Origin: Amycolatopsis albispora
GTDB lineage: Bacteria; Actinomycetota; Actinomycetes; Mycobacteriales; Pseudonocardiaceae
Direction: 5' to 3'
Assembly: GCF_003312875.1 (NCBI RefSeq)
Contig: NZ_CP015163.1
Location: 4,960,001 to 5,024,000, forward strand
DNA length: 64,000 bases
Program-made: the position numbers and the translations under genes
The notes under the pieces: generated by a model
Seen by the model: the letters and a program-made list of their open reading frames with translations, nothing else
What the model was told of the DNA's origin: nothing
Databases searched by the model: none
In this document: piece after piece, positions 57,821-63,955 of the stretch
How positions within the stretch are numbered: the first letter of the stretch is position 1
Layout of the letters: each line of letters starts with the position of its first letter

Positions 57821-59623
57821 CTACTTGGTGACGGCCCACTCCCCGACGTTCCACAGAGCGCCGTTGTAGGACTGGTTGAACACCCTGTCGATACCGCGGA
57901 AGCCCCACATCGACGGGGTCTGGAACAGCGGCAGCGACGCATAGTTTTCCGCGATGTACCGGTCTGCCTCGGCGAAGCCCTCCCGCGCGACGTTCTCGTC
58001 GGTGGCCGCGACCGCCTTGTCGTACGCGGTCTTGATCCGCGGGTCGTTCAGGCTCTGGTAGTTCTGGCTGCCGCCCTGGTCCTTGGGCACGTAGATGGGC
58101 GGCTGCTCGGCCTTGAACGGGGCCGCCGACCAGCCGAACAGGGCGATGTCGTACTCGCCCTTGTCCAGGTTCCCCTTGAGGAAGTTCGGGTCGGTCTGGT
58201 CGGTGATCTCGATACCGGCGGCCTTGGCCTGGGCGATGATGATCTCGACCGTCTGCTTGCGGCGGTCGTTGGTGTTGTGGGTGATCGTCACCGAGAACCG
58301 CTGGCCGTTCTTCGCGAAGATGCCGTCGGCACCCTTGACCCAGCCCGCGTCGGTCAGCGTCTTGGCGGCGGCTTCGGCACCCTTGCCCGCCTTGTCGCTG
58401 TAGACGTCGGTGTAGCCCTGCTCGCCGGGGTAGAAGACCAGGCTGTTCAGCGGCTGGATGTCCGCCTGGACCTCCTTGAGCAGCTTGTCCACGATCTCCT
58501 GGCGGTTGACCACCTCGAAGAACGCCTTGCGCGTGGCCTCCTCCTGGAAGATCGGCTTGGCGAAGTTCAGGTCGAGGTGCTCGAACGACAGGCGCGGCGC
58601 CGAACCGTACTTGACGCCCTGCGCGGCCAGGCTCTTCAGCGTGTTGGCCGCGGTGACGTCCGGCTGCACCGAGGACGCGACGTCGATCTCGCCGTTCTGC
58701 AGCGCGGTGGCCATCGCCTTGGTGTCCGGGATGCCGCGGACGACCACCTTCGCCGGACCGCCCTTGGCGCCGATCCAGTGCGGGTTCTTCTCCAGCGTGA
58801 CCGACTGGCCGTTCTGGTCGAAGGCGGTGATCATGTACGGCCCGGAGCCCGGCATCAGCGCCTTGTCGAAGTTCTTGAACTTGGTGTTCCAGAACTCGGC
58901 GACCCGCTTCAGGTCCTCGAGGTTGCTCTGCAGGTTGAGCGTCTTGATGTCGGCGATGCCGGTGCCCTTCTCGACCACGTGCGCCGGCAGCACCGCAGTG
59001 GAGTTGAACATGCCCTTGTAGTCCAGGTACGGGCTGGAGAACTGGGCTTCGAAGGTCAGGTCGTCCTTGCAGACCGGGGCGCTGACCTTGTCGTAACCGG
59101 CGATCGACGCCGACTGGAAGACCGGCGCGTCACCGTCCTTGATCTGGTTGCTGTGCGAGAGCCACGCCAGCCAGAAGTCGTCGCAGTCCCACGCCTCGCC
59201 GTCGGACCACTTCACCCCCGGCTTGATCTTCCACTCGACGATCTGCGGGTCCTTGGACTTGACCGTCCACGACTCCAGCACGTCGTTGTTGAGCAGCACC
59301 TTGTTGTTGCCGTCCAGCACGTTCGCCCCGGCCAGCACCGAAGTGAGCACGAAGGTGTTGTACGAGCTGTTGGCGTCCGGGGTGTCGTTGTTGTACGCCG
59401 AATACCCCTGGTCGATGGCGACGGTGACGGTGTCGCTGGCCGGCGCGTCCCCCAGCTTGAAGTTGTCGCCGGTCTGCGCCTTGCCGACGGCCATGCCCTT
59501 GATGTCCTCGGCCGCGCCGGTGTTCGGGTCACCGCCCTCGTCGCCGCCTCCCCCGCACGCGCTCAGCAACAGCGCCGTGCCGGCGAACAACGAGACCACC
59601 TGGACCGCTCTGGTTCTCCTCAT
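57821..59623 (-). CDS. Family 5 extracellular peptide-binding lipoprotein, paralogue 2
   Basis: A 600-residue lipoprotein with the same length, lipobox position (C23) and domain layout as paralogue 1. Most differences are conservative and spread evenly, except for a cluster in the C-terminal 30 residues and in DDFWLAWLSHSNQIKDGDAPVF. Both genes have the same leader, GTGCTAGGAGGGCACA, in front of the start codon. A terminator separates the two genes, so each is a separate unit. The shared promoter indicates joint control; different peptide preferences may have evolved. Confidence 0.93.
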   Translation of the reverse strand: MRRTRAVQVVSLFAGTALLLSACGGGGDEGGDPNTGAAEDIKGMAVGKAQTGDNFKLGDAPASDTVTVAIDQGYSAYNNDTPDANSSYNTFVLTSVLAGANVLDGNNKVLLNNDVLESWTVKSKDPQIVEWKIKPGVKWSDGEAWDCDDFWLAWLSHSNQIKDGDAPVFQSASIAGYDKVSAPVCKDDLTFEAQFSSPYLDYKGMFNSTAVLPAHVVEKGTGIADIKTLNLQSNLEDLKRVAEFWNTKFKNFDKALMPGSGPYMITAFDQNGQSVTLEKNPHWIGAKGGPAKVVVRGIPDTKAMATALQNGEIDVASSVQPDVTAANTLKSLAAQGVKYGSAPRLSFEHLDLNFAKPIFQEEATRKAFFEVVNRQEIVDKLLKEVQADIQPLNSLVFYPGEQGYTDVYSDKAGKGAEAAAKTLTDAGWVKGADGIFAKNGQRFSVTITHNTNDRRKQTVEIIIAQAKAAGIEITDQTDPNFLKGNLDKGEYDIALFGWSAAPFKAEQPPIYVPKDQGGSQNYQSLNDPRIKTAYDKAVAATDENVAREGFAEADRYIAENYASLPLFQTPSMWGFRGIDRVFNQSYNGALWNVGEWAVTK

Positions 59624-59781: not shown

Positions 59782-61563
59782 TCAGCTGGTACCGCGCGTC
59801 CAGTTCACCGCGTTGCCGAACGGCCCGGTCAGCGGTGGCCCCGGGGTGACCCCGGAAACGCCCTTGCTCACCGCGAGCGTGTCGGCCAGCTGGAACAGCG
59901 GGATCACCACGTTCCGCTGCCACAGCTGGGGCTCAATGGTCTCGACCACCGCGCTCTGGTCGCCGATTCCGGTGAGTGCCGACTCGATTTCGCTCCGCAG
60001 GGATTCGTCGCAGAAGGCCGCCGGATTCGACGGCACGGCGGGCACGGTCGTGGTGGTGCCGGGCTCGGTGGGCGCGCAGCCGAACTCAGAAGCCAGCGTG
60101 CGCACGGGATCGGTGCTCACCGCCTGCGGCACCACGGCGATGTCCACGCCGACCGCGCCGTCGGCGGGCGGGATCGGCGTGCCGTCACCGTCGGCGGCCG
60201 GTTGCGCGAGCAGGTTCGAGAACAGCTCACGTGGCTGCGGGCTGACCGTGCGCACGTCCACTCCGGCCGCGACGAGCTGCGCGGTCAGCTCCTTGGCGAT
60301 CGTGGCGTACGGCTCCCGCAGGCCCGGCGAAGCGACCACAAGGGACAGTTGGCGACCGCTGGAATCCCGCCAGATCCCCGAATCCCGGGTGTAGCCGGCG
60401 TTGGCGAGCAGTTCACCGGCCTCCGCGGGGTCCGGTGTGGCCGGTGGGCCACCCGCCGGAATGGTGGGCCGGTAGCCGGCCGTCGACGGCGGTTTCAGCA
60501 GTGAATCGGCGCGCAGTTGCGCGGACGGACCGCCCTTGGTGCCCTCGTCGATCAGCTTGTTCCGGTCGAGCAGCGCGGCGATCGCCGCGCGCACCCGGTC
60601 GTCCTTGAGCTCGGGTCCGCTCGGCCGCAGCAGCACGCTGGCCAGCCTCGGCTTGGCCACGGTGTGCAACTGCACGGATTCACCGAGTTCACCGAGCAGC
60701 TTGAGCCCGGTGGAATCGGTGCGGGACAAGGAGAACTGCACGGTGCCGCTGCGCAGCGCGGCGGCCGCGCCCGCCTGGTCGGCGCGGCGCAGCACCAGCC
60801 GGTCGACCGCGGCGGGCTTCTCCCACCAGCGTTCGTTGCGCTCCAGGATGATCTCGCCGCGATCGCGGTCGAGCGTCTTGATGGAGAACGGCCCGCCGTA
60901 CGCGGGGAAACCGCCGTCGAGCGCCCCGCGCCAGCCGCCGGGGGCGTCCTTGAACAGGTGCTGCGGCAGCAGTCCGCTGAACAAGCTCTTCCAGCCAGGG
61001 TACGGCTTGGCGAAGGTGACCTCGACGCGCTTGCCGCCTTCGCGGGACTGGATGTCGGAGATCAGCCGGTAGCCAGCCGGGTCCACCACGCCCGGCTCTT
61101 CCTTCATCGCGTTGGCCAGGTACGCGAAGTCTTCGGCGGCGATCGGCGCACCGTCCGACCAGGACGCGTCCGGGCGGATGTCGTAGGCGACCACGAACGG
61201 CATGTCCGAGCTGACCTGCGCCGAGCCGGAGATGACCTCCGCCGACTCCATCAGGTTCTCGTCCAGCTCCGGGGTGCCGTTCTCGTCGGGCCGGAACACC
61301 GACGGCAGCAGCAGCGCGGACAGCGCGTCGGTGACCGTCGACGAGTCGGCCAGGTTGTGCGGGTTGTACCCGCCCACCACGTCGTCCACGCCGATGACGA
61401 TCTGCGACGGCGCTTTCCCCGCCGGGGTGGACTCCTGGGCCACCGGCGTGCTCACCACCGGCGGTGGCGGGGTGTTGGTGCACCCGGCGAGCAACGCCGC
61501 GGCGAGCAGCCCGACGGCGCCCAGCCTCGGTCGCCGCCCGCTGGTCACACCCCTCAACCGCAC
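59782..61563 (-). CDS. lpqW: LpqW-like family 5 binding lipoprotein
   Basis: A 593-residue lipoprotein. The signal RRPRLGAVGLLAAALLAGC has its lipobox LLAGC near residue 28, and the rest is an SBP_bac_5-like fold (VVAYDIRPDASWSDGAPIAAEDFAYLANAM, GPFSIKTLDRDRGEIILERNERWWEKP). It has no close similarity to the two dpp binding proteins. In M. tuberculosis the gene next to typA (Rv1166) is LpqW, which affects mannosylation of glycolipids rather than peptide import. The GTG at 61563 has GGGAGG 7 nt upstream; ATG 61593 is an alternative. Confidence 0.85.
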   Translation of the reverse strand: MRLRGVTSGRRPRLGAVGLLAAALLAGCTNTPPPPVVSTPVAQESTPAGKAPSQIVIGVDDVVGGYNPHNLADSSTVTDALSALLLPSVFRPDENGTPELDENLMESAEVISGSAQVSSDMPFVVAYDIRPDASWSDGAPIAAEDFAYLANAMKEEPGVVDPAGYRLISDIQSREGGKRVEVTFAKPYPGWKSLFSGLLPQHLFKDAPGGWRGALDGGFPAYGGPFSIKTLDRDRGEIILERNERWWEKPAAVDRLVLRRADQAGAAAALRSGTVQFSLSRTDSTGLKLLGELGESVQLHTVAKPRLASVLLRPSGPELKDDRVRAAIAALLDRNKLIDEGTKGGPSAQLRADSLLKPPSTAGYRPTIPAGGPPATPDPAEAGELLANAGYTRDSGIWRDSSGRQLSLVVASPGLREPYATIAKELTAQLVAAGVDVRTVSPQPRELFSNLLAQPAADGDGTPIPPADGAVGVDIAVVPQAVSTDPVRTLASEFGCAPTEPGTTTTVPAVPSNPAAFCDESLRSEIESALTGIGDQSAVVETIEPQLWQRNVVIPLFQLADTLAVSKGVSGVTPGPPLTGPFGNAVNWTRGTS

Positions 61564-61672
61564 CTGCTCGCCTCCCGCTAGCCGGACCGCCATGCTGCCA
61601 TGGGGAGCGATCCACCCGACACCGGGTTTCTGTCCCCCAGTTAGGGGACGCTCCACCATGCGTGCCGGTTCC

Positions 61673-63598
61673 TCAGCCGCGGTTCTTGACCCGGTTGCGC
61701 TCCTTGGCCCTGGTGTTTACGTCCAGGATGACCTTGCGGATCCGGACCACCTCGGGCGCGACCTCCACGCACTCGTCCGCGGCGCAGAACTCCAGCGCCT
61801 CCTCCAGGCCCAGCTTGCGCGGGCGGGCGAGGCGCTCCAGCTCGTCACCGGTGGAGGAGCGCATGTTGGTCAGCTTCTTCTCCTTGGTGATGTTGATGTC
61901 GAGGTCCTCGGCACGCGGGTTCTCCCCGACCACCATGCCCTCGTAGACCTCGGCACCCGGCTCCACGAAGAAGGTGCCGCGGTCGGCCAGCTGGATCATC
62001 GCGTACGCGGTGATCGGGCCGGACCGGTCGGCGACCAGCGAGCCGCTGTGCCGGGTGCGGATCTCGCCCGCCCACGGCTGGTAGCCCTCGAACACGTGGT
62101 TCGCGATGCCGGTGCCGCGGGTCTCGGTGAGGAAGTCGGTGCGGAAGCCGATCAGGCCACGCGCGGGCAGCACGTACTCGAGCTTGATCCGGCCGGTGCC
62201 GTGCCCGCCCATGTGCTCCATCTTGCCCTTGCGCGCGGCCAGCAGCTGGGTGATCGAGCCGAGGTGCTCCTCCGGCGCGTCGATCGACAGCCGCTCGAAC
62301 GGCTCGTGCAGCTTGCCGTCGATGGTGCGGGTGACCACCTGCGGCTTGCCGACGGTCAGCTCGAAGCCCTCGCGGCGCATCTGCTCGACCAGGATGGCCA
62401 GCGCCAGCTCACCGCGGCCCTGCACCTCCCAGGTGTCGGGGCGCTCGGTGGGCAGCACGCGGATGCTGACGTTACCGATCAGCTCCTGGTCGAGGCGGGC
62501 CTTGACCAGCCGCGCGGTGACCTTGTCGCCGCCGTTGCGCCCGGCCAGCGGCGAGGTGTTCACGCCGATGGTCATCGAGATGGCCGGCTCGTCCACGGTG
62601 ATCCGGGGCAGCGCCTCGGGGTTCTCCACGTCGGCGAGCGTGTCGCCGATGGTGATGTCCGGGATGCCCGCGATCGCGACCAGCTCACCGGCGCTGGCCT
62701 CGGTGGCCGGGACGCGGGTGAGGGCCTCGGTGACCAGCAGCTCGGAGATGCGCACGGACTGCACCGAGCCGTCCTCGCGCAGCCACGCCACGGTCTGGCC
62801 CTTGCGCAGCTTGCCCGCGTGGATGCGGATCAGCGCGATGCGGCCGAGGAAGTTCGACGCGTCGAGGTTGGTGACCAGTGCGCGCAGCGGGCCGTCCGGG
62901 TCGGCGACCGGCGCGGGCACGTGCCGCAGCAGGGTCTCGAACAGCGGGTCGAGGTTGTCGCTTTCGGGCAGGCCGCCGTCGGCGGGCTGCTCCAGGCTGG
63001 CCTTGCCGGCGCGGGCCGAGGCGTAGACGACCGGCAGGTCGAGCACCGCGTCGAGATCGGCGTCCTCGATGTCCCCGGCCAGGTCGAGCAGCAGGTCGTG
63101 GGTCTCCTCGACCACCTCGGCGATGCGCGCGTCCGGCCGGTCCACCTTGTTGACCACCAGGATCACCGGCAGCCCGGCTTCGAGCGTCTTGCGCAGCACG
63201 AACCGCGTCTGCGGCAGCGGGCCCTCGCTGGCGTCGACCAGCAGCACCACGCCGTCCACCATGGCCAGGCCGCGTTCGACCTCACCGCCGAAGTCGGCGT
63301 GGCCGGGGGTGTCGATGACGTTGATGGTCACCGGCCCGTCGGCGGTCTGGCGCCGGATCGAGGTGTTCTTGGCGAGAATGGTGATGCCCTTCTCGCGTTC
63401 CAGCTCGCCGGAGTCCATCACGCGGTCGACCATCTCGGCGCGTTCGGCGAACGCGCCGGACTGGCGGAGCATGGCGTCGACCAGGGTGGTCTTGCCGTGG
63501 TCCACGTGTGCGACGATGGCGACGTTGCGCAGGTCGGGCCGCGTGCGGCCGGACGTCTCGCGGTCGGCTCCGGCGGCGATGGCACTGGCTGCGGGCAC
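61673..63598 (-). CDS. typA: Translational GTPase TypA/BipA
   Basis: A 641-residue ribosome-associated GTPase. The G motifs are VAHVDHGKTTLVDAML (G1), NKVDRPDARI (G4), and DTPGHADFGGEVERG (G3), and the elongation-factor-G-like domains II, III and V and the BipA C-terminal domain are complete. BipA is used for ribosome assembly or translation under stress. The GTG at 63598 has AGGAGC 8 nt upstream and begins VPAASAIAAGADRETSGRTRPDLRNVAIVAHVDHG; the frame to 63691 is not family-like. The order typA-lpqW-mshB repeats the mycobacterial Rv1165-Rv1170 block. Confidence 0.97.
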   Translation of the reverse strand: MPAASAIAAGADRETSGRTRPDLRNVAIVAHVDHGKTTLVDAMLRQSGAFAERAEMVDRVMDSGELEREKGITILAKNTSIRRQTADGPVTINVIDTPGHADFGGEVERGLAMVDGVVLLVDASEGPLPQTRFVLRKTLEAGLPVILVVNKVDRPDARIAEVVEETHDLLLDLAGDIEDADLDAVLDLPVVYASARAGKASLEQPADGGLPESDNLDPLFETLLRHVPAPVADPDGPLRALVTNLDASNFLGRIALIRIHAGKLRKGQTVAWLREDGSVQSVRISELLVTEALTRVPATEASAGELVAIAGIPDITIGDTLADVENPEALPRITVDEPAISMTIGVNTSPLAGRNGGDKVTARLVKARLDQELIGNVSIRVLPTERPDTWEVQGRGELALAILVEQMRREGFELTVGKPQVVTRTIDGKLHEPFERLSIDAPEEHLGSITQLLAARKGKMEHMGGHGTGRIKLEYVLPARGLIGFRTDFLTETRGTGIANHVFEGYQPWAGEIRTRHSGSLVADRSGPITAYAMIQLADRGTFFVEPGAEVYEGMVVGENPRAEDLDINITKEKKLTNMRSSTGDELERLARPRKLGLEEALEFCAADECVEVAPEVVRIRKVILDVNTRAKERNRVKNRG

Positions 63599-63747
63599 GC
63601 TCGAGCTCCTGATACTTCGGATTTGGGGTGGCCGACCGCGGATACCCGTGTTGGAATCGAATCCAAGGCACGCGAGAGCGGCGCTGGTCATGCGCGATCA
63701 CGTACAGGGTACCTGGCAGGCGCCTGTGACCAGGGCCACGCCCCAAG

Positions 63748-63766
63748 ATCGGTTAGCCTCACCTAA
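63748..63766. promoter_or_regulatory. DtxR/IdeR-type iron box
   Basis: The 19-bp sequence atcggttagcctcacctaa matches the consensus TTAGGTTAGSCTAACCTAA at 17 of 19 positions. It lies 39 bp before the small cysteine-rich gene and 149 bp upstream of typA on the other strand. Confidence 0.75.
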
Positions 63767-63805
63767 CCTGGGGAGCCGGAAACCGGCGCGGCGGGAGAGT
63801 GTGCA

Positions 63806-63955
63806 GTGGGCAAGAAGCACGACGATCCGCGAGCGCTGGTGCGCAAGTGGATGAAGGCGGGCAAGGTCAAGAAGAAGTGCTGCCGCTCGAAATCCCGGTG
63901 CAAGAAATGCCCGGTGCTCGCGTTGAAGAAGGCGAAGGCAAAAGCCGCCGCCTGA
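63806..63955 (+). CDS. Small cysteine-rich basic protein, candidate iron-regulated gene
   Basis: A 49-residue protein, not long enough for ordinary gene finding. It starts MGKKHDDPRALVRKWMKAGK (GTG start) and has the cysteine cluster KKCCRSKSRCKKCPVLALKKA, that is CC-x6-C-x2-C, in a lysine/arginine-rich context, so an iron-sulfur, zinc or nucleic-acid-binding role is possible. A GGGAGAG ribosome binding site lies about 8 nt before the start, and an iron box is upstream. It is not a known named family by eye. The last 45 bases of the window hold nothing recognised. Confidence 0.75.
   Translation: MGKKHDDPRALVRKWMKAGKVKKKCCRSKSRCKKCPVLALKKAKAKAAA

Follow-up and report, generated by a model that had tools for sequence, protein, structure and literature searches.

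At the right edge of a 64,000-nucleotide stretch of Amycolatopsis albispora DNA (NZ_CP015163.1, positions 4,960,001 to 5,024,000 of the forward strand; this whole stretch is called the window, and position 1 is its first letter), an open reading frame (ORF) of 49 codons with a GTG start encodes MGKKHDDPRALVRKWMKAGKVKKKCCRSKSRCKKCPVLALKKAKAKAAA. A 19-bp iron box of the IdeR/DtxR type, ATCGGTTAGCCTCACCTAA, lies 39 bp ahead of this very short gene, as an initial annotation of the sequence had stated, and the good ribosome-binding site mentioned there is at least plausible (Table 1). The typA gene lies on the other side of the box, in divergent orientation. Here, we analyze the small gene, its box and their counterparts in other genomes; by name, the nearest relatives of the window in a protein search were Amycolatopsis. 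Papers are cited by accession and from the excerpts of them that were available to us.

The predicted 49-amino-acid protein is basic, as annotated (19 Lys and Arg residues against 2 Asp and Glu residues, isoelectric point 10.6), and contains four cysteines. Their exact spacing is CC-x5-C-x2-C; the spacing CC-x6-C-x2-C that was originally given had the right number of cysteines, and is right for the interval counted from the first of them (C-x6-C-x2-C).

Table 1. Features at and around the small gene, in window positions
Feature	Position	Strand	Basis
Iron box, IdeR/DtxR-type 19-bp palindrome, 16/19	63748..63766		consensus scoring; genome scan; conserved before most homologues
Possible -10 element, TAGCCT, within the box	63754..63759	+	visual inspection and comparison with Pseudonocardia loci
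Ribosome-binding site GGGAGAG	63793..63799	+	sequence; plausible
Small gene, GTG start, 49 amino acids, basic, four Cys	63806..63955	+	ORF list, homologue searches, alignments, pN/pS
Codons of the invariant CC-x5-C-x2-CP loop (C25, C26, C32, C35, P36)	63878..63913	+	alignments
typA, divergently transcribed neighbour; longest ORF, with a possible true start further in	61673..63691	-	ORF list; promoter comparison; outside the proposed system

The small gene encodes a conserved protein

The small gene is real and protein-coding. This follows from the ratio of non-synonymous to synonymous differences (pN/pS), which is 0.17 when the window gene is compared with 53 related cores and the counts are pooled, and 0.22 over 600 random pairs, and from the existence of thousands of related proteins. 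The protein search with the window protein returned 208 of these, and 3668 of 4537 candidates matched a profile built from 32 diverse members at E-values up to 0.001. The Cys and Pro columns of the loop are invariant in each alignment (22, 27, 32 and 52 rows), and the invariant positions in the 52 aligned rows are K22, C25, C26, C32, C35 and P36. The earlier description of a small, possibly metal-binding protein is supported, and the protein is conserved. A short gene with tandem Cys codons might be a chance ORF or a cysteine-codon leader peptide, but the pN/pS values, the invariant columns besides Cys, the 3668 related proteins and the variation of the downstream neighbours between loci refute this in practice.

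No named family had been recognized for the protein, and Pfam indeed gave no curated family match over cut-off for the window protein. One weak match, to FeoC (PF09012), had an E of 0.012 and 16.2 bits, below the Pfam gathering cut-off of 21; it was given by 1 of 27 members only and was treated as chance. None of 240 listed family matches carries a precomputed Pfam domain, and the database names of members, where given, are mostly "hypothetical protein", with a few automatic assignments, for example as adenine-specific DNA glycosylase. We found no description of the family in the literature searched, of which the supplementary table of PMC8464063, a possible listing of a Saccharopolyspora homologue, was not part.

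The distribution of the family is wide but patchy. Genomes with a match number 104 of 150 in the bacterial family, 76 of 298 in the order, 78 of 394 in the class (76 of 394 with a wider profile at 1e-4) and, at 1e-5, 9 of 296 in the phylum, three of these outside the class. All of these are lower bounds, because the gene was afterwards found in four genomes that had been counted as negative. Eight listed genomes of genus g119 (family f33) gave no match. The tails of the proteins differ between lineages, being Lys/Ala-rich in Pseudonocardiaceae, EGTLPDGYTVKKRKLVKV in Nocardioides-type members and LERESKRRYSF in Jiangella types. The N-termini of two predicted proteins, EVSLTY in P0122 and KVSLTY in P0172, resemble a translated iron box, and GAA GTG AGC CTC ACC TAC in the iron box of Lentzea loci reads alike. 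Judging from these sequences, the start codons of P0122 and P0172, and also of P0195 and P0235, were probably called too far upstream, into the box. Two copies of the small gene per genome are present in G345 (L076 and L077, both adjoining a ferritin) and on contig 233 of G465.

The box is probably part of an iron regulon

Compared with the consensus TTAGGTTAGSCTAACCTAA, which is used in PMC8464063 for IdeR of Saccharopolyspora erythraea, the box matches at 16 of 19 positions, one fewer than the 17 first reported. Sites with at most three mismatches occur at 11 places in the 9.12-Mb home genome, the small-gene box included, and a reversed control pattern at the same threshold occurs at none. 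We read the ORFs around the other ten sites and scanned ten of those proteins with Pfam. Two sites share a locus that encodes a chorismate-binding enzyme and a short-chain dehydrogenase of catechol-siderophore type. Boxes were also found by the genes for a pyridoxal decarboxylase, for two Peripla_BP_2 binding proteins, for a DUF2470 protein and for an ABC exporter with a CobW_C protein next to it. The home-genome ferritin (L259:1616-2164:+) has an iron box of its own, and so does an FprA-type reductase (L260), whose nearest solved structure is FprA (1lqt, E 1.3e-95). Since most of the other strong boxes sit by iron genes, the small-gene box looks like part of a working iron regulon. Two hallmarks of an IdeR/DtxR regulon, a 19-bp box near a promoter and a candidate repressor, are present in the home genome: two Fe_dep_repr_C proteins score over cut-off, and one of them (L263) may be IdeR, as far as can be read from its sequence. 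The best box of the home genome, 17/19 in L252 (5540085-5540103), has no obvious iron gene alongside; it lies about 0.9 kb from an ORF that reads as superoxide-dismutase-like, and near a secreted-type ORF without Pfam match.

The TAGCCT motif within the small-gene box is a possible -10 element, in which case transcription could start near position 63766; a sigma-70 consensus scan found no promoter. In Pseudonocardia loci, the box ends 2-3 nucleotides ahead of the start codon, and a bound repressor should therefore cover the promoter. According to the excerpts of PMC9132128, mycobacterial boxes over a promoter or start lead to repression; the bfrA and bfrB boxes sit further upstream, and bfrB is activated. 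From the position of the box and this rule for overlapping boxes, the small gene would be expected to be repressed by iron. IdeR very probably controls it, binding and iron response both being predictions.

Box and gene are mostly inherited together

We collected 196 loci with the small gene, which gave 188 unique sites after eight duplicates had been dropped. Where a chance match on the reverse strand fitted as well, a single site was retained for the locus, and the counts of ferritin linkage and box context and the statistics are for loci of at least 5 kb. By the best score in the 250 nucleotides before the CC codons, a box of at least 13/19 precedes the gene at 137 of the 188 sites. In the loci fetched earlier, the proportion is 75 of 115 sites, against 4 of 1717 random windows of 235 nucleotides. 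Boxes of this quality are present at 99 of 110 typA-linked sites outside a Mycobacterium-like set (defined below) and at 27 of 35 ferritin-linked sites. Box and small gene are mostly co-inherited. The initial annotation had suggested a scan of relatives for the pair, and had named independent variation of box and reading frame as a refutation: the scan speaks against such variation in most lineages, the Mycobacterium-like loci excepted. A functional box that belongs with the small gene is very probable.

The same analysis separates the small gene from typA. We inspected the typA promoters of 28 genomes in which the small gene had initially been undetected. Four of them in fact carry it (G007, G010, G025 and G032), with boxes scoring 14-16. 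In the remaining 24, the stretch that was read contains no small gene, and the box score does not exceed 12. The difference between gene-less typA promoters and the 110 typA-linked sites gives a Fisher p of 2e-18, a value that treats related genomes as if they were independent. Because typA promoters without the gene are also without the box, the box tracks the small gene and not typA, which is merely a neighbour. A translation-linked factor acting with TypA is a most improbable identity for the protein. A divergent typA is found within 500 nucleotides in 79 of 80 named loci, and the basic charge is reminiscent of ribosomal proteins, but about 74 of the 80 belong to one family, Pseudonocardiaceae, by their genus names, so that the 79 are not independent; among the loci read, typA adjacency is confined to families f1 and f8, and the 24 promoters without small gene argue in the same direction. 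The adjacency of typA in the window thus stands, but not the importance attached to it, since the box follows the small gene and ferritin recurs elsewhere.

About 550 nucleotides to the right of the small gene, the home genome contains a tryptophanyl-tRNA-synthetase-like gene (L032:6502-7467), preceded by a short ORF with tandem Trp codons, MRISSQLWWPPTAA, which may be a Trp-controlled leader. Downstream of typA, two solute-binding-protein-like lipoproteins are encoded on the minus strand (57821-59623 and 59782-61659), the second of which may be LpqW-like by its position.

The small gene recurs beside ferritin

Every locus of at least 5 kb was searched for ferritin, after the flanks had been read where typA is not adjacent. 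A ferritin is present in 36 of the 196 loci, and in all 36 it lies within 400 nucleotides of the small gene. The two genes are divergent in 22 cases, the small gene precedes ferritin on the same strand in 13, and the order is reversed, again on the same strand, in one. No ferritin was found in 1.39 Mb of typA-linked loci; among the 65 unique sites that are not typA-linked, 35 are ferritin-linked. These loci belong to families f16 and f2 in the home order and to f41 and f48 elsewhere in the class. One more case, in addition to the 36, is in family f94 of another class, where a ferritin is divergent from the small gene with a 13/19 box in between (L373). As loci of the same genus are not independent, the better count is three arrangements, five families and two classes. 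In a further family, also outside the class (f73, L368), the small gene has a box of 14/19, and genes of Fur type and with a ferritin domain lie no more than 1.4 kb away. The nearest solved relative of the linked ferritin in the PDB is BfrB (E 9e-45; 3qd8, which we take to be the Mycobacterium tuberculosis protein), and "BfrB-like" is used here in this sense of nearest PDB entry by sequence.

The loci in which ferritin directly follows the small gene in the same orientation are L143, L148, L170, L171, L312, L314-L317, L319 and L321-L323; one of the 13, L143, has a second box (13/19) between the two genes. In family f41 (L140, L144, L148, L169, L170 and L171), a gene that reads as methylmalonyl-CoA-mutase-like recurs upstream, which we take as local synteny.

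A model for the small protein

Together, our data suggest that the function of the small protein is probably tied to ferritin or stored iron. More tentatively, we favour a protein of iron starvation that works with ferritin and that is probably analogous, though unrelated, to bacterioferritin-associated ferredoxin (Bfd); reductive release of iron in the manner of Bfd is a possibility that we hold with slightly more reserve. The link to ferritin is genomic, and the cofactor, ferritin binding, electron transfer and iron release are what we infer. When iron is plentiful, Fe-IdeR on the box over the promoter would keep the small gene off, and iron starvation would turn it on. The CC-x5-C-x2-CP loop of the small basic protein would then hold a metal cofactor, probably an iron-sulphur cluster, and the protein would most likely dock on the shell of a BfrB-like ferritin. 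Electrons would pass from an NADPH-ferredoxin reductase, for example the co-regulated FprA, via the small protein to the ferric core, and Fe2+ would be released.

A number of findings weigh against this model. In the home genome, which has two PF00210 genes, the boxed ferritin among them, ferritin is not adjacent to the small gene, and the 3 kb of L365, from outside the class, contain no box and no ferritin. A box of at least 13/19 is found at 11 of the 30 sites that are linked to neither typA nor ferritin (19 are without), and at none of the 13 typA-linked loci of the Mycobacterium-like set (genus g53 of family f8 and five named loci), which keep the gene. The best boxes in this set (L062, L065-L067, L069, L071, L072, L079, L197, L213 and L248-L250) are 9-11/19; L074, also of genus g53 and not typA-linked, is likewise without a near box. 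If small gene and ferritin share a box or operon under simple repression, ferritin would be iron-repressed as well, unlike bfrB of M. tuberculosis.

BfrB-like ferritin is enriched in gene-bearing genomes, but not obligatory. With the L309 ferritin as query and E-values to 1e-15, matches were found in 22 of 40 gene-bearing and 8 of 40 gene-less genomes (p 0.0024), a comparison that is partly circular, as the gene-bearing set includes ferritin-linked lineages, and in which the gene-less set is non-random (18 relatives and 22 from the class list in order, absence meaning for most of the 22 that they are not listed among the profile matches). Six of the 22 matches are weak (E 1e-19 to 1e-16), and a split at 1e-25, a cut chosen after the values were known, gives 16 of 40 against 7 of 40 (p 0.047). 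The 18 gene-bearing genomes without a BfrB-like match, which also speak against the model, all have some ferritin-superfamily gene, maybe for bacterioferritin or Dps.

The protein itself raises further objections. Two predicted models (predicted local distance difference test scores of 82.7 and 87.1) have no convincing match to any known fold, and binding of Zn by the four Cys is as compatible with the data as an iron-sulphur cluster. The fourth Cys of the MutY-type cluster loop, with which we compare the protein below, is present at that distance in 0 of 240 listed proteins, and at none of 196 sites does a Cys follow CP within eight residues; the adjacent CC stands in its place. Bfd, moreover, docks above a haem (PMC7760384). 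BfrB is of the non-haem type.

Two other roles deserve consideration. The small protein might be a partner of ferritin in iron loading or handling and not a reductant, that is, a chaperone, a shell regulator or an Fe(II) carrier, whose Cys bind iron or zinc structurally. Ferritin linkage and box fit this idea equally well, and co-directional operons, which co-produce ferritin, suit an assembly partner. It is nevertheless an unlikely role, since ferritin has to be loaded when iron is in excess, and Fe-IdeR on the presumed promoter-overlapping box should then silence the gene. Alternatively, the protein could be an iron-sparing, nucleic-acid-binding factor like FbpA, FbpB and FbpC of Bacillus subtilis, which would be made in iron starvation and aid a small RNA in silencing the mRNAs of iron proteins, with a Cys loop that may sense iron. 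Such a factor would account for charge and control, but not for ferritin linkage in three arrangements. There is no Pfam match over cut-off (best E among 27 members 0.012), basic charge is the sole positive evidence for RNA binding, and PMC7430163 itself points out that RNA binding by FbpB lacks experimental support. We regard this role as unlikely, too.

For a Bfd-like partner of ferritin, the implications are of some interest. In the literature searched, including the excerpts of PMC7762939 and PMC9132128, we found no partner protein for the return of iron from actinobacterial BfrB-type ferritins. With a conserved, boxed small gene recurrently beside ferritin, the partner question becomes directly testable. 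If the model is correct, iron storage and iron release would be opposite states of one IdeR-switched circuit. It is conceivable, though we would put it more cautiously still, that this patchy, unannotated family is the missing key that opens BfrB-type ferritin in Actinomycetota, with FprA as the electron source and IdeR as the switch.

Comparison with known systems

The 49-amino-acid protein differs from the Fbp proteins in its ferritin linkage and in its conserved four-Cys loop, which to our knowledge is absent from Fbp. No Fbp family was found in the Pfam scan (E up to 10, with HMMER filters that drop most weak matches). The likeness to FbpB is that both are short, basic and, very probably in the case of the small protein, under an iron repressor (PMC7430163).

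The loop resembles the cluster loop of MutY and endonuclease III in its C-x6-C-x2-C-P pattern and in flanking residues (CCRSKPRCKRCPV against CTRSKPKCSLCPL). The iron-sulphur loop of these enzymes has the pattern C-x6-C-x2-C-x5-C, and three of its four Cys have a counterpart in the small protein. All seven matches of the family profile in the PDB are MutY, at a non-significant E of about 3, and the residue order beats shuffles with P 0.0015, in a comparison that was chosen after the match and that uses 99 cores, a few of them chance reverse-strand matches. The protein is, however, too small for a glycosylase domain, and it has an extra Cys next to the first.

Bfd is likewise a four-Cys protein, with a Cys spacing unlike that of the small protein, and the partner ferritin would be BfrB-like, not a haem bacterioferritin. 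Fer2_BFD (PF04324) is absent from the Pfam matches of the members scanned (the window protein, a set of 27 and 4 others); in the home genome it matches only in open frames of 454-852 amino acids, and no stand-alone Bfd was found there. As described in PMC7762939 and PMC7760384, Bfd is a small [2Fe-2S] protein whose reduction of the core lets Fe2+ out, and it is often encoded beside bfr, yet its expression differs from that of bfr. The likeness to the protein studied here is that it, too, is small, has four Cys and is encoded beside a ferritin-family gene, in lineages other than that of the home genome, and that the home genome has both a boxed ferritin and a boxed ferredoxin reductase. In Actinomycetota, the small protein, though unrelated in sequence, would thus have the role that Bfd plays in Pseudomonas towards bacterioferritin.
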